Assembly (NCBI GenBank): GCA_963680875.1
Contig: OY804579.1
Coordinates: forward strand, 56,433,718 to 56,497,717
Direction of reading: 5' to 3'
Length of the DNA: 64,000 nt
DNA from: Bathymodiolus brooksi
Taxonomy: Eukaryota > Mollusca > Bivalvia > Mytilida > Modiolidae
Shown: in pieces, positions 8,429-62,954 of the stretch
How positions within the stretch are numbered: position 1 is the stretch's first letter
Layout of the letters: each line of letters opens with the position of its first letter
Notes under the pieces: model-generated
Seen by the model: the letters and a program-made list of their open reading frames with translations, nothing else
What the model was told of the DNA's origin: nothing
Database searches by the model: none
Position numbers and translations under genes: made by a program

Positions 8429-9669
8429 TTACTTGTTCATGCAGGTAATGTTTGGATGACAACGGCTATTACACATCAGTCCATTTTTTCTACACAAACA
8501 TCTTTTCGTGTTGTATCTGGACTTCCCACTAGCACTACAACCACACTTTGTAAAGCCTTGGCCATCACATATTGAGGCATCACTAACTGCTTGTCTCAGA
8601 GAAATTTCCGTTTAAAGTTGAACATTGTCCTTAGCTAAAAAGTTATTATCGGAAAGTTCAAATTGGTTTCTGGTATAAAGCCCACATAATACACCTGACT
8701 TTGTTCCAAGTTTATAGCCATGCTCCTCCCTGCTCAAGACTACAGCCAGCAAATTACGTGGATCACCCTTCCCGCTGTCAACCATAGGGATGGGGATAAG
8801 AATATTTTTTCCGACTTCAACCTCGGTTAAAATTCTTTCGGACAGATTTCTCATTCTGTTGGCCTGCCTTCTCATAGATTCGGAAGCATTTCGTCTCTCC
8901 TCAGAAATAACTTCCTCATTGAAACACAAATGACATACCACCAAATCAGCATTGGCCTTTGAACACATTGAACATTTTGCTTTGACAAAACATGATTTTT
9001 CACATACTGTGCAAATTTCAATTTCAAGCCCGTCATCTTGAGTGTCTGGTTGATCTAAATGACCAGGAGCCCTTAAATCATTTCCTTCCTCTTCAGCACG
9101 ATTAAGGTGTTTCACTAAATCTTCCTCGGATTCTAACGAGCAAAGAAGTCCATGTGCTGTAAATTCACGTCCGTTGTCTGATTGAAGGATATGTGGAGCT
9201 CCAAAAAGTAAAAATATGTCCAACAGTTGAAAACCAACTTCTGCTGCAAGCTTTGAAGTAAGTGGACGTAAGACAGCAAACTTAGTGAGATGATCTTGAT
9301 AATGCAAAATGAACTTAAAGTCACCATCACGCATGGACTGCATATCAACTAAATCTACTTGTCCTCGACTGTTAAAATCCTTGATAAGAAGTAGTTTGAC
9401 GACTAGGCCCTTACTTGCATTTTTTCTCTTTTTCAATTGACATTCCTCGCACATTTCTTTGAATAAATTCAGGACATTTCTTGTAACATTAGCATATTTC
9501 TTATTAACCTCCTTTAACATTTTATCTCTTTCTCCATGTCCAGTATTCAGATGAGCCCTCAAGACAATGCTGTACATTTCTTCAGCAAAGGCATAATAAG
9601 GAATTGGGTCTGTAATTGCTTGTCTCTTTTTAATCAGTTTTTCAATTTTACCACACTATTACGTCAAAT
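8429..9669 (-). pseudogene. Ginger/KRBA2-type integrase, exon 2 (broken)
   Basis: Minus-strand exon 2 of a transposon integrase of the group domesticated as KRBA2. It begins after TTTTTTTTCTTCAG at a phase that fits exon 1. From M at 9577 there is an H2C2 zinc finger (H9, H14, C43, C46), then an integrase core with the first acidic motif (VDLVDMQS, ~75-80) and the second (SDNGREF, D134). The segment that should carry the catalytic Glu is missing: the sequence goes straight to an acidic region and a CxxC cluster. A stop at 8612-8614 interrupts the frame, which then continues into a cysteine-rich tesmin/TSO1-like CXC domain (RCLCRKNGLMCNSRCH) ending at 8429. A single-base shift sits near 9645-9655 (RFDVI then CGKIEKLIKK). 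Missing Glu, stop and frameshift make it non-functional. Assignment to Ginger-like transposons is from family knowledge. Confidence 0.8.
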
Positions 9670-39616: not shown

Positions 39617-40315
39617 TCCTAATGGATCTTTCCAAGGCATTTGATTGCCTACCCCATGATATTTTATTGTATAAACTTTCGGCCTATGGTATGTCCACTG
39701 ATTCTGTATCCCTTCTTGAGTCCTACTTATTAAGTAGGAAACAGCAAATTAAAATTAATGGTATCCTGAGCAGTTGGTCTGACATCCAAAAAGGGGTACC
39801 CCAAGGGTCAATCTTGGGGACTTTACTTTTTAATGTCTTTATTAATGATATTTTTTATTTTGTAAAAAAGGGTACTTTATATAATTATGCGGATGACAAT
39901 ACTTTGTCTTATGATCATCCTGATTTTAATGTACTTACCTCAGTTTTAGAATCAGAGTCAAATGTTCTTATTAATTGGTTTAAAGTTAACAAAATGCAGG
40001 CTAATCCAAATAAATTTCAGGTACTTGTGGTTGGGAAGAAGACTTTTGACAAAAACATGAAGATTTGTATACAGAATTCTACACTTTCATGTGAAGAGAC
40101 AGTAAAACTTTTAGGAATTGAAATAGATTATCAATTAAATTTTGACATTCATATCAGTTCAATCTGTAGGAAGGCATCACAGCAACTAAATATACTTAAA
40201 CGTTTGGGCCGATATTTAGACAGATTAAGCAAATTAACTATATTCCACACTTTCATTCTCAGTAACTTTAACTTCTGCCCTTTGGCTTGGCATTTTTGTA
40301 CCGATAAAAACGTGT
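39617..40315 (+). pseudogene. LINE reverse transcriptase relic, 3' part
   Basis: Continues the RT: motif A DLSKAFDCLPHD, motif B GVPQGSILGTLLFNVF, motif C YADDN (catalytic Asp pair, around 39887-39900), then the thumb region to LSNFNFCPLAWHFCTDKN, after which similarity ends at ~40315. Open for ~230 codons, so decay is recent, but the LINE is 3'-truncated and split by the 38492-39616 element. RT of the jockey/CR1/L2 lineage. Confidence 0.9.
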
Positions 40316-40974
40316 TTTTCTGTCTCTTCCGACGACAGGTTAGTCTTATTTTTATTCCCCGGGATTCCGACGGGTGACCCTGCTATAGTCGCTTTCTACG
40401 ACAAACGCATATATAAAACGTTACGATTGAAGGAATTGTCCCTAAGTGACCCCTTATATCACGGAAAGAAACACCATCGGAATATGACAAAATAAACAAC
40501 TGTGCCATATGATACGTTTTGTCAATTTATCTTTTAATTGCCATATTTAGTGACTGAAAACATAGATGACGGAACACAATATACATACAAGAAATCGAAA
40601 TAAGATCCTACGTGATCTCACTGGGCGATGATGATTTTATTTTTAGCGCACAAAAAATATTTGTTACATATCTACGTAACACCAAGAAGGAAAATTTAAA
40701 AAACGTGATGTTTCTCGAGTAACATGTCTATCAAAACCAATTACACAACAATTTTAAGACAATAACAGTTCCATTGAAATAGATAATAGGTTTATATCAA
40801 AGTTTGCATGTACATAAAGTACGATTCTTGTAAAACAAGTATAGAACGCCTCCTTTCAGAGCATGGAAACGATTCTTTTTAGATAACAATTCATTGTTCG
40901 ACTTGCATACGATTTCATGGATTTACTTTACAACATTTCAGTGTGTGCATTTTTTTATTTATTTTTTTTATTTT
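40316..40974. other. Intergenic, nothing recognised
   Basis: No coding or repeat signal supported, apart from T-runs near 40950. Confidence 0.4.
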
Positions 40975-48982: not shown

Positions 48983-50430
48983 ATGGAGTACATTAAGTCG
49001 TCTCGTGGTGGTACAGTCCTTCATTTATGAAGGCTTCCGTTATCAGATTAACTGCAGGGGTACCAATGATCACATCTTCTGGAGATGCCATGACCGCCAA
49101 TGTAAGGGCCGTTTATCTACCCAGAATGACCAAGTACTGAGCTCCACTCCACACAACCATCAAACCAAGTAGACAACAACATAGAACAACTGAAACATGT
49201 TGCTCGTGAGAATGCTAAAACTTCAACTGAACCAGTTCCAGCAATCTTCAATGATATAGCTGTACATGTTGCACAACATAATGACCGTGATGCCATGACA
49301 ACAGTTCTGCCAAACTTCTCTTCTTACAAGTCATCACTCTACCGTCAGCGTCAGAAAAACTACCCTGAAATTCCTGAGACTGCTAGTGACGTCAACCTAG
49401 AGGGTAAATGGACAGAGACACTTGATTCCAGCCGTTTTCTTCTTCATCATGACAGACAAAGCAATATCATCATATTTGCTTCTGACCACATGCTCCGTCT
49501 GATTGCAGATGCAGATACTCTCTGCATGGATGGTACCTTCAGCACCTGTCCACGTATCTTCTTCCAGCTGTTCACTATAAACATTATAACTCTCTACATG
49601 GATGGTACCTTCAGCACCTGTCCACGTATCTTCTACCAGCTGTTCACTATAAACATTATAGTTGACGGTAAACAGGTTCCTGCACTCTATGCTCTTCTAC
49701 CCAGCAAAAGCAGAGAAACTTACAATAAGATGTTTACTTCAATTAAAGAGCAGATGCAGAACTTAAACTTTACTTTACCTCCATCAATAGTGCTTATTGA
49801 CTTTGAAATCGCCTTGCGACAGTCCGTTCAACTTCAGTTCCCAGTAGCATATATTAAAGGTTGTTACTTTCACTTTACCCAGTGCTTATACCGTTGGATA
49901 CAGACTCATGGACTGGCGATCGACTACAGGGAAAGCACATCCAACATTAGAACTTTTGTCGGTAACTGTGCTGCACTAGCTTTCCTTCCACCTGCTAATG
50001 TTCGACTTGCTTTCGCCTCCGTAAGTGGTGCCCAGGATCACACTGTGCCGTCCGTTCAGCAGTTCTCCACATACTTTCAGCAGACATGGTTGAGAGACTT
50101 TCCGATTGTTATGTGGAACCACTGTGAAACAACATCAGAGAGAACCAACAACAGACTTGAGGGTGGCACAACCATATCAACTGACTTGCAGGCAGACCCC
50201 ATCCCAACATCTACCAACTGATTGACCTCATCAAAAAAGAAGATGGTGCATCTATTGTGACACTACAGCAGATTCAAACAGGTGGTCTGATTGTCAGCAA
50301 AAAGAAGATCTGGGAGCGCAACGACATCCGTATCAGACGTCTTAAAGACCGTTTCAGCAGTGGACTTATCAGCCTCTGTGATTTCCTTTCTGCAGGTGGT
50401 CAACTGTCTGGACTTAAAACACTAACTTGA
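48983..50430 (+). pseudogene. MULE transposase with FLYWCH zinc finger (broken)
   Basis: Starts MEYIKSSRGGTV (48983). After a frameshift comes a FLYWCH zinc finger (YEGFRYQI, FWRCHDRQC, TPHNHQTK; 49023-49170), then after another shift the MULE transposase domain in one 308-codon frame (49295-50221). Acidic motifs MDGTFSTCP (D79, duplicated at D103) and VLIDFE (D169) are present, then CYFHFTQCLYRWIQ and WNHCETTSERTNNRLEG. A third frameshift near 50160 moves the terminal region (HPNIYQLIDLIKKEDG ... LSGLKTLT) to another frame, ending TGA at ~50430. A 72-bp in-frame tandem duplication (49517-49588 repeated at 49589-49660) doubles the first catalytic Asp motif. MULE transposases cut and paste elements with terminal inverted repeats and ~8-11-bp duplications, as seen here. 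Not functional as it stands. Confidence 0.9.
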
Positions 50431-54311: not shown

Positions 54312-54640
54312 TGAGTGAGTGATTGCTGTTTAATGCCAAATGAGCCATTTTTCTGCTATATCATGGTGAGAACAAGTTATATTCGATGACATGATGTCCA
54401 CTTTGTACTAGACCAACCCGCTTAGTTGGTTTTCCGCAGATAGACATGTCACTCCACTGAGATGCATTATCCTGATTCTGAGCCAACCAGTCTTTGCTCG
54501 TTGTCTTTAATGCTGTGTGCTTAGCAGAGAAACAGCAAATACAAATTTTAGTCTTAGGTGTTGGACCTTCGACCAGGGTTCGAACCCACAATCTACCACA
54601 CTCAAAGTGAGCACACTATTACACCACTGGAGCCGTTATG
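54312..54640 (-). mobile_element. tRNA-derived SINE (family 1)
   Basis: Complement has TAATAGTGTGCTCACTTTGAG (A-box region), an intact B-box GGGTTCGAACCCTGG, GCTAAGCACACAGCATTAAAG and a tail ATGATATAGCAGAAAAATGG. Lies tail-to-tail with the family 2 copy at 54025-54235. Confidence 0.8.
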
Positions 54641-54659
54641 TGTGGGCAGATACAGATAT

Positions 54660-57010
54660 GGGCAGTTTCAAAATAAATGGCTCCTACTGCTATAGCTGTC
54701 TAATTTACTCATTTTTATGATTTTATTGGATCTAAATAGTTCAAAAGATCTGTAATGATTTGATGTTTGTTACTGCAAAAAATCTTTTAGATATCTAGAA
54801 TAACAAAAAAAATATGTCCAAAAAACATGCCAAAATTGTCAGGAGTGCAACACTTTTTTGTGACACTTTAAAAAATCCTTAATTTTCAACATCCTACCAC
54901 AGTGCTAAATCAAACAACATGTTATCAAAATCTATTTCATCACAAACTTTGATATGTTGACATACTTTAAGATAGCAATAGATCATGCTTCACATTTATT
55001 ATTGCATAAAAATATGGCTTTGTAAAAAAGATGTACCTAGTCAGGAGTGCAACAAACATTTATGCAAGTTTTCCTAAATTACATTGTAGAAATGTTGTCT
55101 TTTAGTTTTCAAAGATATGGGGTATAAATAAATCTTAATACATCATTGCTGCTTCAAAACCATAGTTAAAGGATACACTAAAATCAGTAGTAAGGCCAAG
55201 AATGTCACATTAAAGGCAGCACCCTCAAATGTCAGGAGTGCAACATTTGATATTTTCTTAGACATATTTTCTTTTAAATGTAACTAAAATCACATTTGTC
55301 TTTCTATTTCAACAGAGACTGACTAAGAGAACAGATAAAACCCATTTACCTGTTTGAGATACATAAAATATCTCTCACAGAAGCATTTGATTCATGTCAG
55401 GAGTGCAACTAGTTTTAAGTGATTTTCTACACAGTCTAAATTATAGCTTTTTATATGGATGATTTAAATAAAATGAGATTCTGTCAAGTTTAGAATAATG
55501 TTTGAAAAAATTAAAAGTGCCAATAGCATTTTATGTGCTTTTAATTTTATGTAATAAAGCATTTTTGTTCATTTTAAATGGTCTCATGCTTTAATATCTA
55601 TTAGGTATTAATACTAGAGACATTCTCTGACAAGGGAACATGTTTTCTAGGTTCATTAGCTATTGGAGATTAATTGACTTGATTAAGTTTATGATAAATG
55701 CATTTATCTATTTTCTTATAGATAATTTATGGTTGACCATGTAAATGTTGCACTCCTGACATAGATATTTAAAAATCATTGAAATTTGATATACATGTAA
55801 TCAATTTTCTAAGTATCCAAAAAAATACTTGTAATTGTACATTAAACATCTATTTTCAATATTAATTTAGATTAATACATGTTTTAAATGTTTTTGTATA
55901 GTATATTTCAAAAATAAGTTGGAATTTTCGAGAAGTATGGCTGTAAACAAGTTACAAATAACTAGAAAAATGTTACTTTAAGAAACAATTATCATTAAAA
56001 CTTGGTAAAACTAATGCTTGAAAGATCACCAACTGATTTTTTCCCCTGTGAATTGTTTTTAAGTTAATAACTCTTCTTTTTCTTGATTGCAATATAATGT
56101 CAGGAGTGCAACATATCCTGATAAAATAGTACCATTGATAAAATAATGATAATTAATAATAAATTGCCTTTTCTAGCCTATACAAATATTCTAATTATTT
56201 CTTTATGATTTATCTTATAAATATATTAGAGTGGTATGATACAAATTTTCAAATGTAATTAAAAATATTGCTGCTAAAACTGGGTATTAAAGAAGTGGTA
56301 TGGCAAAAAATTGTTACAAATTTCCAAATACTGTCATTTCTGTACAAATATTTCATTGAAACAGGTAAAAAATATTGTATGAGTTAACAGTAACATCACT
56401 GTTCAATGTTGGCATTTTAAAATGTGATATTTTCTTCTTTTTTCTTTATTATAAAATGTCAGGAGTGCAATTAAAATAGACAAATGTTTTTTCTACAACC
56501 AATTATTTTGCGATCGTTCAAAGAATCAATGTGATTTTTTTTTTACAAATGGCTACTTATCTTTAAAGTTTGAAAATTTTGTTGTCTTAAGTAAAAATAT
56601 TCGTTATTATTTTGATAATAAAAACTTTATCAGGTAGATTGGACAAAAATATTGAGAATTTTTCATAAAAAATAGGTTTTAAGAAAAACTACAACTACCA
56701 ATAACCCAATATTTTGCACAAAAAGTCATTTATATCAGTTGCATTGTTTGAGAAACCATTATACAAAATAATTGAGACTAAAGATTGTTTAACTGATATA
56801 GAATAAGTATGTGTTTTACATGTTTTTCATGCCAATTTGTGTTCAATAAAAGGTTCTTAAAAATTTATTGTTTATCTGTTCATAGTTTCTTTCTTGTTTC
56901 ATTTACTTCAATGTATACAACATTGAAAATTATCAGCAGAAAGTTTTTAGGAGTGAGTTTAATTTGGACATTTTTTTCACATGTTGGAGCCATTTTTTTT
57001 TAAACAGCCC
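54660..57010. mobile_element. New TIR transposon family, copy 1 (2351 bp)
   Basis: Terminal inverted repeats GGGCAGTTTCAAAATAAATG (left) and GGGCTGTTTAAAAAAAAATG (right, complement), continuing GCTCCWA. Perfect 4-bp duplication ATAT at 54656-54659 and 57011-57014. Interior AT-rich and non-coding. The motif TGTCAGGAGTGCAACA (near-perfect) starts at 54838, 55040, 55230, 55395, 55746 (reverse), 56098 and 56457. The motif is a dyad: TGTCA N6 with TGACA/CAACA. A second copy at 59935-62243 has the same layout. No transposase, so it is non-autonomous; superfamily unknown. It lies in TMEM130-like intron 3. Confidence 0.85.
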
Positions 57011-57014
57011 ATAT

Positions 57015-57564
57015 TAAACATGTGAGACGTATATGACATATAAAAACGTATGAAATTTGTTGGATTCATAATTCTGTGTTAATGCATTTTTGTTTATAGA
57101 AACTTCAATTGTATATATATTATTCATGTTGTTTCCAAAGGGAAATTGATTGTATATTATATATCAGTAAAACACTGGATGTTACAACTAAGAAATAAGA
57201 TATACAACTCTTAGTGTTATTGGTTGTGTTTAAGTTTCTTCTTCTGTCAATATTATACTTCTGATTTTTTTTTCAATTTTCACATTATTAAAACCACATT
57301 TAAAACTATTTGATTTTTTTCCAATTCAAATGTGATCTGTAAAAACTGTACTTGACTGTTAAATCTCTCTTTTGTTTAGATTATTTTTATTTGGACCAGT
57401 AAATCCAAATTTTCATTTCAAAAACTTAAAAAGTCATTGATTTTATGATTGTTTGTTTGAGATGTGTATTAAATATTTTTTGATATACATATGTACCAGA
57501 AAAGCTGTTTTGCAAGTGTTTTGAAAATACTGTTGTGAATAAGTGAATTTTCTATATTTTCCAG
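57015..57564. other. TMEM130-like intron 3, last part
   Basis: AT-rich, no element recognised; acceptor TTTTCCAG. Confidence 0.5.
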
Positions 57565-57649
57565 ATGAAATAAACATAACCAAAATAACAGGTACTGGTC
57601 AAGTTAAAGAAGGGGAACCTGTTACTGTTAATGTTACATTTAATGGAAG
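57565..57649 (+). CDS. TMEM130-like glycoprotein, coding exon 4
   Basis: An 85-nt exon after TTTTCCAG, before GTAATT. With the carried A it reads NEINITKITGTGQVKEGEPV, then TVNVTFNG plus AG. Start of a third Ig-like domain (xVxEGxPVTVNVTFNG), with sequons NIT and NVT. Phase 2 out. The transmembrane and cytoplasmic exons must lie right of the window: I find no continuation to 64000. Confidence 0.68.
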
Positions 57650-57727
57650 GTAATTCAAGTTTTTACAATGCTTACTGCAATTGTATAAAATTTCTGCATT
57701 TTATTTAGGTCACCTACTAGAAAGGGG

Positions 57728-57985
57728 CGATGGGTTTATGGTGTTTAACTCCACTTTCAACATTATTTCAGTTATTTCGTTATGGTTAGTTTTATTGGAG
57801 GAAACAGGAGTATCAGGAGGAAACCACTGACCTGTTGCAAGTCACGAACAAACTTGATCACAAAATATTGTATCGAGTACACCTCACCTGAGCGGGGTTC
57901 GAACTTACAACTTTAGTGGTGATAGGCACTGATTGAACAGGTAGTTGTAAATCCAACTACCATACGATCATGATAATGACAGCCC
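57728..57985 (-). mobile_element. SINE (family 2)
   Basis: Complement: GTAGTTGGATTTACAACTAC region, B-box GTTCGAACCCCG, central GTTTCCTCCTGATACTCCTG and tail AATAACTGAAATAATGTTGA + AAGTGGAGTTAAACACC. Confidence 0.78.
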
Positions 57986-58378
57986 CCAAAGGGGCCATGT
58001 GAGCTATTTATCATCATTTAAAGTCATCATTGCCTGCCTTTTAAGTATTTTACACTTTCATTGTTATCAACTCTAAAACCACTGAAACTATTGAAAACAA
58101 TATGGGTAGGATTATTCTGGCTGTAATATGATAAATATAGCCCAGAAGTGTATAAGTACCCAAGTGTACTCGATCGAAACATTTCAAAATGATCACATGT
58201 TACATTACTGTTGTTATTCAGAGGTATTTTCTATATCTCAGCTGTTTCACCAAATGGGACTTAACTGAATAGAGATTATCCCTAGGTGGTCGGTCCTCTT
58301 TCTCAATTGTGTATAGCAGGTTTAACCAACTTCCATATTGGTCAACAGAGGCTTTGATTAGAAGAGACATTTTCGACT
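57986..58378 (+). repeat. Decayed helitron-like fragment
   Basis: CCCCCAAAGGGGCCATGTGAGC is a worn head hairpin, followed by a body unit with TATCTCAGCTGTTTCACCAA and AGGTGGTCGGTCCTC. It is interrupted by the element at 58384 and resumes at 59652 (TTGTAGGGATAGTCCATGG). Confidence 0.55.
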
Positions 58379-58383
58379 AAGCT

Positions 58384-59646
58384 CAGTGGCGGATTCAAGG
58401 GGGGGCTTTGGGGGCTTCAGGGGCTTCAGCCCCCCCCCCCCCCGTCGATTAAGTCAAGCACATATATTAACATACGCTTTTCAAGGTTAGTTAACGTCAC
58501 GATATGGCTTTTAATCGAATGGTTTTCGATCTGTGTAATGGATGTGAAAGAAAATACAAATTCATTTCTTTGTATTGAATTAATCTTCAAAGAGGTAATT
58601 ATAAGTAATTATGCTAAATCAAATTTTCAAGTTTATTTGAAGTTTTTATGAATGTATTGTCAAAATACCAATTACATTTTTGTAATCAGGTATTGTCTAA
58701 ACCGTTATATAAACATGTCTAGTGTCACAATTTCATATAGGTATAACCACCAACACCTGTAAATTGAGGCTCTTTCAAGGAAATTCTTTTTTAAATATCA
58801 TTTATTTTTACAAAAAAATTAAAGGCAAATGTTGCTCTATTACAAAAAAAAACACAAAAAAAAACGTGAGTTTCAGTTTTGAAAATGTATGAATACAGCA
58901 TATTCTAAACTCTAGATGAAAATATAAATACATATAAAATAATTAAAATTAATTAGAAATAAAATAGACTTAAATTAGATTTTTTCCCTGCTATTGCTCA
59001 AACCCTTGAGCTCTTTACAAAATTGCCAAAACACACATACACCAGACCAGCAGAAGCTGATGTAACTTCTTTGTTGAATTCCATTTGCAACTTTGATTTT
59101 GTCGTAACCATTGTTATTGTTCAAATGTGCCTGGCTTTTAAGAAAGAGCTCAGCAGATCACTAGATTTAGATTAAACTTATTTTATTGTTAACTATATAA
59201 CATTTGGATCGGACACAAGTTATTCCAACTTACAAAGGTCCTCTACAAGATCACTACAAGAGAGATCACTTGACATAGGCAGAGCCTTAAAAAGCGTAAA
59301 TTTAAATAGAGCTCACTAGACAGGAGAACAAATGTTGAACAATTCAACCACCAGTGTTTTGAGAGGAGTGCTAAAATATGTGAACCGCTAGACATAGAGG
59401 TTAAAAAACCTAGAATATGCGGGAGACAAAATTTGAAATAATGAGAGATAATGTTGAAGCAGAGTCCGGAAGACTACTTTAGGAAGTAAATAACTGTACC
59501 TTTTCTCTACTGTACGCTAAATGAAATGAAAACAAGGTTTACCGACCTACACGCCAGAACCGCTTTTGGTTCTATCAATTATTAAAAATATTGCTCCATA
59601 GCTGAGCCCCCCCCCCCCGTCAACAGAGTCTCTGGATCCGCCCCTG
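58384..59646. mobile_element. CAGTGGCGGAT-ended TIR element (1263 bp)
   Basis: Ends CAGTGGCGGATTCA (left) and CAGGGGCGGATCCA (right, complement), each followed by a G-rich run (poly-G/C at 58425-58443 and 59607-59618). The 5-bp AAGCT occurs on both sides (58379-58383, 59647-59651). CAGTGGCGGAT ends recall hAT-like non-autonomous elements, but those make 8-bp duplications, so the class is uncertain. Interior AT-rich, no ORF. Confidence 0.72.
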
Positions 59647-59781
59647 AAGCTTTGTAGGGATAGTCCATGGTTTCCTTTCAGTGTCATCATATTTGCATTT
59701 TATGGCAAGTTTGGTAGACATATCACTGATATAAAAAAAATGTGACTATTTTATACTTAAAGATAAATTTCATTAATTAAG

Positions 59782-59906
59782 AAATAATTCATGGAAGCCA
59801 TACTGTGTTGTGAGTTTTAATATGGGTTGGCGGATAAAATACTAATACTGGTATCTGCCAACCCATGTTAAAACTCACAACACAGTATGTCTTCCATAAA
59901 TTATTT
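59782..59906. repeat. 125-bp palindrome
   Basis: AAATAATTCATGGAAG, CATACTGTGTTGTGAGTTTTAA and ATGGGTTGGC pair with the complement at 59857-59906 around a ~25-nt centre (GATAAAATACTAATACTGG). It lies ~25 bp from the left duplication of the next element. Confidence 0.85.
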
Positions 59907-59934
59907 CGGTTCTGATATGTATAATAGTACAAAT

Positions 59935-62243
59935 GGGTGATTTTCAAAAAAATGAAGACTTTGTGTGACATAGAGGGTGAAATTTCAAATTGGACAAATT
60001 GACATAATTTTGGTCGTAAAATAATGTCAATATGATATATTTTTTAGATTCAGTTGCTCAGTGCAATATATGAAGACAACAATTTTTTTTTTCAACTTTT
60101 ATTGGCAGCAAAGTGTTAAAATGATAACAAATACAGACTTACTTCCTCAGAGGTATCATTTTCTTTTGGGTATGGTAAAAGACCTAAATGTATTTCATTT
60201 TGATAATGATATGAAAAAGGCACATTTTGGTACCAAACTTTGTATATATCATGAGAAAACAGTTTCAGTATATCAAAGAAACACTATTTTTACTGTATAT
60301 TTTAAGAAATCTGGTAATTAAAGTTTTCATACAAGCATAAAAAATATGAAATAATGAGGCTTAATAGTTGTAAATCAATTATTTATATATGCCTAATAAA
60401 TATAACAAAAGTTAAGTTAAGTTGATCATTGGTGGTATAAACTAGAGGTAACCAAATGAAAATACTGTCCATTTTTTTATGTTTTGTCACACTCCTGACA
60501 CATTTTTCTAATAGATAAATACACCAAATATCAAGCTAAATGCAATCATTGTTGGTCACAATAACTAAGTAGTAGTACATAATCTATTTTGCATTGTTAT
60601 GATGTTATTTCAATCATATTTTATCATATTCTAAGTTATACTATCATAATTATAAAAAATGACAACTCAATTTTCAACCATTTATACATCTTTTCAAGAG
60701 TATAGTGCTTATTGAGAATTAAATAATTCCCCAAGACAATTACAAGCAGTTTTATGGAGGCTATATGCTTACAAAATAATCTATTTCTTAAATAAAATTG
60801 TCATACTCCTGACTGCCTCTCGAAAATAAACCTGTCAAGCTGAAAATAATATAACCAACTTATTCTTGCCAAACTAAAAGTTATATTTCTTCAAAAGCTT
60901 ATATTTCTTACAGTTAACAGTAAATATTAAAAGAAGATTCAAAATTATTTGCCCTTTAGGAATTTATCTCATCAAAAATGGTTAAAATGGATTTGAAATT
61001 GATTAAAACTAGCAATAGATCATCTTTTCTTAGTATAAAATTACTTTTTAGTGGTTTTCAAATTAGTAGCCCCATGTTTCTCAATAATTTACTCTGCAAA
61101 AAAACTTCCTACTGCAATTGCAATCGACATTTAATGTTTTTATGTCAGGAGTGTGACATATTACTGTTGAATGAAAAATTATCGATAAATTTTCAAAAAT
61201 GCTATATCAAAAGAATGAAATTGTTTTATGAAAGGCAAGATATATTAAAGTAAGTATTCTGTGTATCTAAAGCAACATACATCAATTTTTCATTTAGAAA
61301 AAATCCATATTTTCACATGTTTTAAGAAAATATAACCCTTTATCATCACTTATTATGAGAAAGGTGTCATGCAATATACAAAAATACTATAATTATTACT
61401 TATTGTTTATATGTGATTAAATTGAAAACATTTTGGAAGTTTGTAGAAGCATGTTTTTATTTTATTTTTATTTAAAAGATATGCCTATTAAAAGTGTCAC
61501 ACTCCTGACATTAGTTATTTTGATTTCCTAGCTATGATATGTCATATATCAGAGCTATTTCCAACTTTTTTCTTTGATTGGGTCTGGAGCTTTTTGAAAA
61601 TAAAGAAAATTGTGAACTATTAAAGCATTCAACATAGTACTATACAACTAAGATAAAATGTCACACTCCTGACGTTTTTTGTGTCTCTCCTTATGCAAGC
61701 CCAATTTTACAACTATCATATTCATCCAGTCTAATACTACTAAATTATTATAACTAATGTTTTTTTACAACATATTTTTACTTTTCTGAACTAATTAGTC
61801 TCAACAATGAAAAATTATTAATGTTTGATTTGACATTTGTACAATTTTCCAAGTTAAATTTATTCACGTACACCAATTTAAGAAATAGAATAATTTTTTG
61901 TCCCATAATCATAGGGTCACAAAACCTCTAGATATTTGAAGTAAAATGGTACAAAATTATAGAATACCATCTTTCTTTCATATTTTTTTTATTATATTTT
62001 TTTTATCATCAAGGTAAGTTGAGGCAATTTAAAGTTTGTCATGCTAAAACGTCACACTCCTGACAAATTTGACCAGTTTTTAGAGGATAACTTTTTAAGT
62101 GGAAGAGCAATCTCCATGACACTTTGCATGAAGATAACTGTTACCATTGTGCTTGTTTTAAGATATTTACCTTTCTTTCATATCATTTAATATTCAAATT
62201 ATTCTCTGAAAATGAAAAGTCTTCATTTTTTTGAAAATCACCC
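59935..62243. mobile_element. New TIR transposon family, copy 2 (2309 bp, inverted)
   Basis: Terminal inverted repeats GGGTGATTTTCAAAAAAATG + AAGACTTT on both sides (identical over 28 bp), related to GGGCAGTTTCAAAA of copy 1. Perfect 4-bp duplication AAAT at 59931-59934 and 62244-62247. The motif is present as TGTCACACTCCTGACA (reverse) at 60485, 60799, 61495, 61659, 62050 and forward at 61143. Read from the right end, offsets are 178, 569, 733, 1085 (opposite), 1429 and 1743. No transposase; frames of 86-91 codons (60061, 60978) are not supported as genes. Confidence 0.85.
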
Positions 62244-62247
62244 AAAT

Positions 62248-62954
62248 ACAGTAGTATACTTTGATGGAAAAGACAATAATTTATACTTACTTTTGTGGGC
62301 AATGTTGCACACAATTTATGCTGCTAGATTTGAGCAGACGATAACTCATCAACATGTGCTTTTATGACGGGAAAGTCAGTCTTATTGATGGAGCATCTGT
62401 AAAAATAATATTGTGTTCACAGGTTTTAATTGCACATCGCATATTTATTAATTTTGGATATGTTGATTATTTTCAGTGAATATAGATATTTAAAACGTTA
62501 ACAACAGTATAAATAGTTTTATTGTGTGATTTTATTACCTGGCTTAAATATGTGCACTGCACATGTGCTAATCAGATTTTGTCATCTAAAGAAATCGCTC
62601 GTTTGTTTGCAAAGCGAAAGAAAGATGTCATATTTGAACTGTTAGATAAATTTCATTAATTATTAGACAAATTTCATGAATAATTTTCAATGCTTACTTA
62701 TTATTTATAATTTTGTATATCAATATTAAGAAATAATTACTGGTAGACATATATTTATATTGTTTTTACCACGGGTTGGCACTTTATGTCGAATATTTTA
62801 CTGCAAACGTGATCTGTGTTAGTTTTGTATAAATACATGTAACCTGTATACTATAGATAAAATATACAGAAAACAAAGTTCAAATAGATTACAATGTTTT
62901 ATATCAGCATATTGAACCTAAAAGAATGTTATTAAGTCAGGTTAAGGACAGAGT
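62248..62954. other. Unrecognised AT-rich sequence
   Basis: No coding or repeat signal, apart from two TTAGAYAAATTTCATKAAT stretches near 62641-62685, similar to 59760-59780. Confidence 0.4.

Follow-up and report, generated by a model that had tools for sequence, protein, structure and literature searches.

A short motif held in place between two diverged families of non-autonomous transposons in the bivalve Bathymodiolus brooksi

Why would two transposons keep the same 16-bp word at nearly the same places when most of the sequence around it has changed? This question is raised by a 64,000-nucleotide stretch of the Bathymodiolus brooksi genome (the window), where an initial annotation had proposed that such a word is under selection as the target of a DNA-binding protein.

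Two elements and their motif sites

Element 1 (54660..57010, plus strand, 2351 bp) and element 2 (59935..62243, minus strand, 2309 bp) are non-autonomous DNA transposons, which we assigned to family 1 and family 2, respectively. Each lies between 4-bp target-site duplications (TSDs), ATAT at 54656..54659 (left) and 57011..57014 (right) for element 1 and AAAT at 59931..59934 and 62244..62247 (left and right on the plus strand) for element 2, and in all of this the initial description of two complete elements, the second inverted, was accurate. Neither contains an ORF of at least 100 amino acids, and hence neither has a transposase of its own. The terminal inverted repeats (TIRs) of element 2 are 28 bp long and perfect, and those of element 1 are about 48 bp long and imperfect (73%), with GGGCTGTTTAAAAA as the right end. 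Both families have GGG ends, and both combine TIRs with a TSD of constant length (4 bp), as non-autonomous TIR DNA transposons do. Perfect 4-bp duplications were found in 26 of the 36 distinct insertions of both families (L017 and L018 were dropped from the TSD and tail counts), with A at position 1 in 22 of these 26, T at position 2 in 21, A in 14 or T in 6 at position 3, and T at position 4 in 23. A MULE ORF at 49295-50221 was set aside as a helper, since nothing connects it with the motif and target duplications of MULEs are usually longer than 4 bp. One paper gives them as 4-10 bp.

Element 1 carries seven motif sites on the plus strand, except for the reversed fifth one on the minus strand: site 1 (54837..54852), site 2 (55039..55054), site 3 (55230..55245), site 4 (55395..55410), site 5 (55746..55761), site 6 (56098..56113) and site 7 (56457..56472), which correspond to 1-based element starts of 178, 380, 571, 736, 1087, 1439 and 1798. 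Element 2 has six, with the equivalent of site 2 absent from its family: site 1 (62050..62065) and the equivalents of sites 3 (61659..61674), 4 (61495..61510), 6 (60799..60814) and 7 (60485..60500) on the minus strand, and that of site 5 (61143..61158), reversed relative to the element, on the plus strand. Their element starts are 179, 570, 734, 1430 and 1744, and 1086 for the reversed site. All offsets given in the initial annotation fall within 1 of these figures, and the reversal of the fifth site in both elements was confirmed. The position of 1744 reflects a deletion private to element 2: all 29 other family-2 loci read have their last site at 1771-1822. Allowing up to 3 mismatches, the window contains 16 motif matches, 13 of them in the two elements with 0-2 mismatches each, against a chance mean of 1.2 and with none of 100 shuffles reaching 16; the remaining three, outside the two elements, are identical to one another (TGTCAGGTGAGCGATA, 3 mismatches).

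Twelve positions are invariant across the 13 consensus sites (7 of family 1 and 6 of family 2), and what both families share is the asymmetric GTCAGGAGTG-NN-AC. NN, motif positions 12-13, is CA at 7/7 family-1 consensus sites and TG at 6/6 in family 2, so that the sites of element 1 are of CA type and those of element 2 of TG type; in single copies, the exact-core sites carry CA in 47/50 cases in family 1 and TG in 145/147 in family 2. The motif had been read as a TGTCA-N6-TGACA dyad suited to a dimeric protein, an argument that is not supported for the shared motif, because the dyad exists in family 2 only, and family 1 has TGTCA-N6-CAACA at its seven consensus sites, with variants at the two outer bases.

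Conservation within and between the families

Both families are high-copy and young, with copies about 1-2% from their consensus and mean pairwise divergences of 2.1% (family 1) and 3.2% (family 2). Among 40 scored places each, 35, element 1 among them, were near full length at 95-100% for family 1 (882 first-look candidates) and 33, element 2 among them, at 91-100% for family 2 (654 first-look candidates). The proposal that the insertions are recent and the subfamilies old is therefore borne out as two young families heavily diverged from each other. Of the near-full-length places, 8 of 35 in family 1 and 27 of 33 in family 2 entered the alignments; L017 and L018, which represent the same insertion as L016, and L021, which is some 600 bp longer, were dropped from the family-2 alignment and the interval counts. 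All seven sites were present in 8/8 fully read family-1 copies and all six in 30/30 of family 2, with at most 2 mismatches each, and their offsets did not scatter, as the initial annotation had expected. These site counts leave out the 30 cuts L041-L070, which are 3,179 bp each, contain partial elements and in some cases duplicate insertions of L011-L040. Exact cores are absent at some places in these cuts, through decay or insertion, and the flank of L004 holds one extra core, an isolated GTCAGGAGTGTCGC.

Within families, conservation of the motif compared with the rest was 0.982 versus 0.989 in family 1 and 0.986 versus 0.969 in family 2, with the windows on sites ranking between the 31st and the 86th percentile of all 16-bp windows. 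Interiors that align normally, with a motif conserved no better than its surroundings, had been named beforehand as telling against selection, and this pattern is seen within the families but not between them. Such weak contrast within families would be expected of copies decaying after insertion, and it leaves the between-family argument untouched.

Between the families, four of the six element-2 sites, all of them in the first 1.1 kb, differ in position from an element-1 site by no more than 2 bp, and in 200,000 random placements that ignored orientation four coincidences never arose and three arose 14 times. The two consensuses share six in-register identical words of at least 10 bp, and every one of them is the motif, with shifts of +1, -1, -2, -1, +34 and +32. 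Motif-free intervals compared between the elements scored z 0.3-3.3 above shuffles. The description of the interiors as almost unalignable is right for most of their length but not for four in-register patches of 61-72% identity (element 1 positions 74-213, 568-759, 1030-1127 and 1745-1827) and one off-register patch of 60% (1157-1468 of element 1 against 1486-1773 of element 2), which implies that parts of the interior moved or were duplicated. Site 5 sits within the interior block of highest conservation (consensus 1025-1130, 74%). The first and third sites are 393 bp apart in family 1 and 391 bp in family 2, and interval length is unstable in two of the seven intervals, from site 5 to site 6 and from the last site to the end. 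A spacing test on the other five, chosen post hoc and with the indel rate taken from consensus positions up to 1250, gave a joint P between 5e-3 and 8e-5 depending on the divergence assumed. Sequence comparison thus establishes that the array exists, that both families have retained it and that their sites differ in concert at positions 12-13, CA against TG. It also supports selection on the motif, with a signal that is visible between families only: a motif kept in place despite heavy divergence would reflect selection on the replicating lineages, so the original argument stands for the comparison between families, whereas no clear extra conservation is found within them.

Over the whole genome, the motif was matched 5,960 times in total (82 for the control), and there were 678 two-site layouts and 585 three-site layouts that include the reversed site, against 0 in the control for either layout. 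Among the 678 pairs neither CA-TG nor TG-CA mixtures occurred, a uniformity that results mostly from two bursts and behind which there are two or three independent lineages. A third, longer layout has its first and third sites 392 bp apart in both C1 copies, and its inner pair was scored at 40 places out of 87 candidates. Loci of this longer family include C5:110743560-110750250, C2:144691798-144698498 and C1:20604076-20610860. Of 14 first blocks of this layout, selected by pattern as having that spacing and including some likely duplicates (about ten are independent), 13 lie upstream of such an inner pair, at a distance of 6,611-6,624 bp for four of them and of 1.9-2.5 kb for another four. 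The family 1 terminus (GGGCAGTTTCAA or GGGYRRTTT) was found at the expected distance before 0/14 of these blocks, so that the link of this third family to family 1 rests on motif spacing. This longer family may encode the putative motif-binding protein. The foreign interiors of L050, L062 and L069, all family-2 copies, initially suggested coding relatives, but inspection by eye and matches to flanking sequence at other loci point to nested insertion of other repeats. In viral contigs, exact TGTCAGGAGTGTGACA was present in two stretches with one site each, and the paired pattern in none.

A putative array of protein-binding sites and its alternatives

The same short word kept at nearly the same places amid changed surroundings suggests a docking protein needed for spread. 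With a probability of about 0.62, we interpret the interior of these two anciently split and recently amplified non-autonomous families as an array to which a trans-acting protein binds, one that co-evolves with each lineage. These cut-and-paste elements would have a non-coding interior made of 6-7 GTCAGGAGTG-NN-AC sites, which a sequence-specific protein would have to bind for mobilisation or continued activity. We infer that the protein would come from a longer relative of the lineage, as transposase or accessory factor, rather than from the host; that each family's protein would prefer its own NN, all sites of one element having switched together; and that the near-constant spacing would reflect co-operation among bound molecules. 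Against such an array count the absence of site 2 from family 2, the two intervals of unstable length, the patch shared off register and the lack of clear extra conservation of the motif within families. As to the putative role of binding, we lean slightly towards transpososome assembly or an accessory function over protection from silencing.

A host transcription, architectural or replication factor might instead dock at the motif and be exploited by the transposon, for example through open chromatin or nucleosome phasing. Spacings of 164-202 and 344-361 bp, clustering near 165-200 and 350 bp, approximate one and two nucleosome repeats, and the sites span the entire interior, beyond the ends alone; a host protein should however impose one specificity, yet the families differ in the same two bases at all consensus sites and the 678 pairs contain no mixed CA/TG pair, and we judge this explanation unlikely. 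An even less probable one derives the arrays from an old tandem satellite with a CENP-B-box-like motif, of which they would be relics, position and motif being shared by descent with little or no present function; it draws on an old internal duplication of element 1 (55767..56470, plus strand; element 1108-1452 versus 1475-1811, 62% identical, E 4e-14), in which site 6 or site 7 terminates each unit. Only 1 of 72 within-element flank comparisons exceeds z 3, the other flanks seem unrelated, and descent alone should not spare just the motif amid such change elsewhere.

The same flank comparisons bear on short-tract gene conversion, which could spread and homogenise sites within an element and so make CA or TG uniform over all consensus sites of a family without selection by a protein. 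Because 71 of the 72 comparisons lack clear similarity, its tracts would need to be about 16 bp, and equal offsets between families would be left unexplained, making conversion highly improbable. We give as little weight to a motif that works in RNA, for example by forming a hairpin or being targeted by small RNAs in a transcript of the element: the family-2 TGTCA-GGAGTG-TGACA could make a 5-bp stem, but TGTCA/CAACA of family 1 disrupts two of its five pairs, both families have site 5 in reverse orientation, and an Rfam search of 54400-62500 gave nothing at gathering score.

Transposon interiors that do not code for protein tend to be regarded as filler. Here, the between-family contrast indicates the bases that matter and their approximate places, and the two-base CA/TG switch offers a ready-made test of specificity. 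If the families use different proteins, this one genome would be a natural experiment in transposon-protein co-evolution.

Comparison with known systems

Our search of the accessible literature retrieved no report of the element, and there was no match to the two TIR starts, one of them searched in both orientations, or to the two 14-bp motif types; TGTCAGGAGTG and CACTCCTGACA do occur in the literature, under titles that are apparently unrelated. CACTA elements (En/Spm, with TNPA) and hAT elements carry repeated short sites in both orientations for the element's own DNA-binding protein, as the elements described here may do, but theirs are subterminal, whereas ours run through the interior. 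TSDs are 3 bp in CACTA and 8 bp in hAT, and both groups differ in termini and TSD length from the GGG ends and 4-bp TSD observed here; with neither CACTA ends nor a 3-bp TSD, our elements fall outside the former group.

The 4-bp AT-rich TSDs agree with those of Sola2, for which the accessible part of the source gives AWWT, including ATAT, AAAT and ATTT (PMC3627910). Interior motif arrays are not mentioned in that part, and no transposase is linked to the elements studied here; DUF6589, our guess for a Sola domain, had no match as a literature term.

A further likeness is with the VANDAL transposons of Arabidopsis and their anti-silencing VANC proteins, which remove methylation. There, a C-type motif is found in both VANDAL21 subgroups and a T-type motif in one only, VANC6 uses other motifs, and the variants are interpreted as co-evolution of protein and target (PMC5735166, PMC10398659). 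Both cases involve non-coding regions with repeats of a short motif whose variants are specific to related families or subfamilies, and VANC motifs are dense, in a single orientation and in tandem repeats that expand and contract. Here, in contrast, single sites 164-391 bp apart have kept their places, with one reversed, and instead of carriage on tandem repeats we found one alike pair in 72 flank comparisons and one old duplication in family 1. It is possible, though we consider it rather doubtful, that these families represent an animal counterpart of plant anti-silencing, in which a transposon-encoded protein would bind regularly placed, lineage-specific sites across the entire non-coding element and its non-autonomous parasites, with spacing fixed by necessary contacts between the bound molecules and with joint drift of protein and motif into CA and TG compatibility groups in one genome.

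Two recently spread element families

Both transposons proposed in the initial annotation were recovered as complete elements with the claimed coordinates and 4-bp duplications, element 1 at 54660-57010 flanked by ATAT and element 2, inverted, at 59935-62243 flanked by AAAT. An ORF scan of both found no frame of at least 100 aa inside either one. A genome of 2.0 Gb in 136 contigs was then searched for copies, giving 35 near-full-length places for family 1 (element 1 included; 95-100% identity; 40 scored of 882 candidates) and, with element 2 as query, 33 for family 2 (91-100% identity; 40 scored of 654 candidates). Mean divergence from the consensus is 1.1% for family 1 (8 copies) and 1.8% for family 2 (27 copies), and the 4-bp flanks, with consensus A-T-A/T-T, are equal at 26 of 36 distinct insertions, which together indicate that both families spread recently and agree with the recent insertion already proposed.

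Several other features were seen in the window. Between the two elements, 58384-59650 begins G-rich (ggcggattcaaggggggg) and ends C-rich (cccccccccgtc...ggatccgcccctgaag) in inverted orientation by eye, and looks like a further transposon; adjoining element 2, a short snap-back inverted repeat (tggaagccatactgtgttgtgagttttaatatgggttggc plus its near complement, by eye) lies at 59790-59905. A 308-aa ORF at 49295-50221 (+) carries a MULE transposase domain (E 6e-16) and has a 99% identical protein from a JGI metagenome, its named relatives including Haliotis rubra, Mytilus californianus, bdelloid rotifers, a liverwort, insects and a nematode, among others. A weak integrase core (rve, E 3e-4, under the curated cut-off) was found at 8612-9577 (-), and 39622-40377 (+) holds a fragment of a reverse transcriptase (RVT_1, E 9e-19).

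Motif positions within and between families

The motif is a 16-bp interior word whose sites are numbered 1 to 7 along element 1, with site 5 reversed and site 2 absent from family 2. Its sites persist in other copies: the full set of seven was found in 8/8 family-1 copies examined, and the full set of six in 30/30 from family 2, with at most 2 mismatches each. Median intervals (family 1, 8 copies/family 2, 27 copies) are 177/178 bp from the terminal inverted repeat to site 1, 393 (202+191)/391 bp from site 1 to 3, 165/164 bp from 3 to 4, 351/352 bp from 4 to 5 and 359/357 bp from 6 to 7; lengths differ from site 5 to 6 (345/361 bp) and from the last site to the end (554/565 bp). The family-2 consensus varies in length at 1300-1450, site 5 to 6 measuring 344-380 bp across 27 copies, and the last site of element 2, at 1744, is shifted by a deletion private to that copy. 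Using the indel spectrum from inside both families (23 events, 0.032 per substitution), the joint probability of five intervals agreeing within 2 bp lies between 5e-3, at 0.5 substitutions per site, and 8e-5, at 1.5, for intervals picked after the data were seen and with two more that had changed. Constraint on motif spacing is likely, short of proof.

Inside each family, the motif showed no clear excess of conservation over its surroundings; in family 2 it is slightly above the family mean, its sites ranking between the 31st and 86th percentiles. The selection argument of the initial annotation draws on the contrast between families: post-insertion decay is even along a copy and selection concerns which lineages keep transposing, so that the argument rests on two, perhaps three, lineages. 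Between the consensuses, six identical words of at least 10 bp are in register and all are the motif, while the closest non-motif common word is off register by 36 bp and the remaining ones by more. The interiors had been called almost unalignable apart from short patches. Motif-free intervals score only z 0.3-3.3 over shuffles; 61-74% identity persists in four patches that are in register and surround motif sites or lie close to them, highest around the reversed site, and one out-of-register patch of 60% is common to both families.

What all 13/13 consensus sites have in common is GTCAGGAGTG with AC two bases downstream, the intervening dinucleotide being CA at 7/7 family-1 sites and TG at 6/6 family-2 sites. 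The proposed dyad is therefore confined to family 2, CA breaking the symmetry in family 1, so what the two families share is not a symmetric dimer site. Adjoining the reversed motif of element 2, 61172-61195 (element positions 1049-1072) forms a near-perfect palindrome around TATCGATA, which looks private to this copy because the family-2 consensus reads TATCAATAATTT there and family 1 TATAGATAATTT.

Genome-wide layouts and a longer family

Across the whole genome, a 14-bp pattern of the motif matched 5,960 times, versus 82 for its reversed control, with 678 site pairs 140-170 bp apart (control 0) and 585 runs in which a reversed site comes after two forward sites (control 0). Mixed CA/TG pairs numbered 0 in either order against those 678 pairs; TA and CG variants of the two-base position also occur. 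The first 100 sites listed form 22 clusters, assigned to layouts by judgement, and 16 of them match family 1 or 2, several with sites missing or deletions; older-looking clusters among these 16 have gaps of 199, 355, 355, 851 and 206, 191, 512, 345, 372. The other six comprise two copies of a longer family and family-1-like sites downstream of those. On contig C1, 2.59-2.86 Mb and 3.85-4.11 Mb each hold three family-1 copies with near-equal site gaps in the same order, and probably represent a segmental or assembly duplication.

In the longer family, two C1 places each carry a trio of forward sites with spacings of 200 and 192 bp, with forward sites resuming several kb on and closing with a pair 160 bp apart. 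An 80-base query from the closing pair gave matches of 88-100% on 16 contigs (40 scored of 87 candidates), and the first-block pattern (200/192 bp) occurs at 14 places (control 0), 13 of them 1.9-18.8 kb upstream of a closing pair on the same strand. These distances are 6,611, 6,620, 6,621 and 6,624 bp, a shorter set of 1,932, 2,026 (twice) and 2,450 bp, and 7,594, 10,708, 14,322, 14,330 and 18,811 bp. Some of the 14 blocks are probably duplicated segments, since the same distances recur on contigs C2 and C18. Such a pattern is expected of a long element accompanied by deleted derivatives and nested insertions, and the first-to-third site spacing, 392, agrees within 1 bp with families 1 and 2. 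Against this reading, the expected terminus was absent from its expected place in 14/14 first blocks; the longer family is a candidate, and no more, for their autonomous relative.

A putative lineage-wide protein and known systems

The array combines a short core that lacks symmetry, multiple sites spaced across the element and a single two-base difference that sets the lineages apart in concert. These are the traces expected of a sequence-specific protein shared by every copy in a lineage, and a protein of this kind is the most likely reading. The array may serve mobilisation or anti-silencing.

Repeated subterminal sites are a feature of CACTA and hAT systems. The AT-rich 4-bp duplications of both families match those described for Sola2 (PMC3627910), and Sola elements are reported from bivalves (PMC10294476); we do not place families 1 and 2 in Sola2 because no transposase is linked to either. 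Among described systems, the VANC protein of VANDAL elements comes closest. In the accounts consulted, VANDAL motifs sit in tandem repeats, unlike the sites studied here, with one exception, but the VANC target motifs fall into types, as they do here, which were interpreted there as co-evolution of the motifs with the protein (PMC5735166, PMC10398659).
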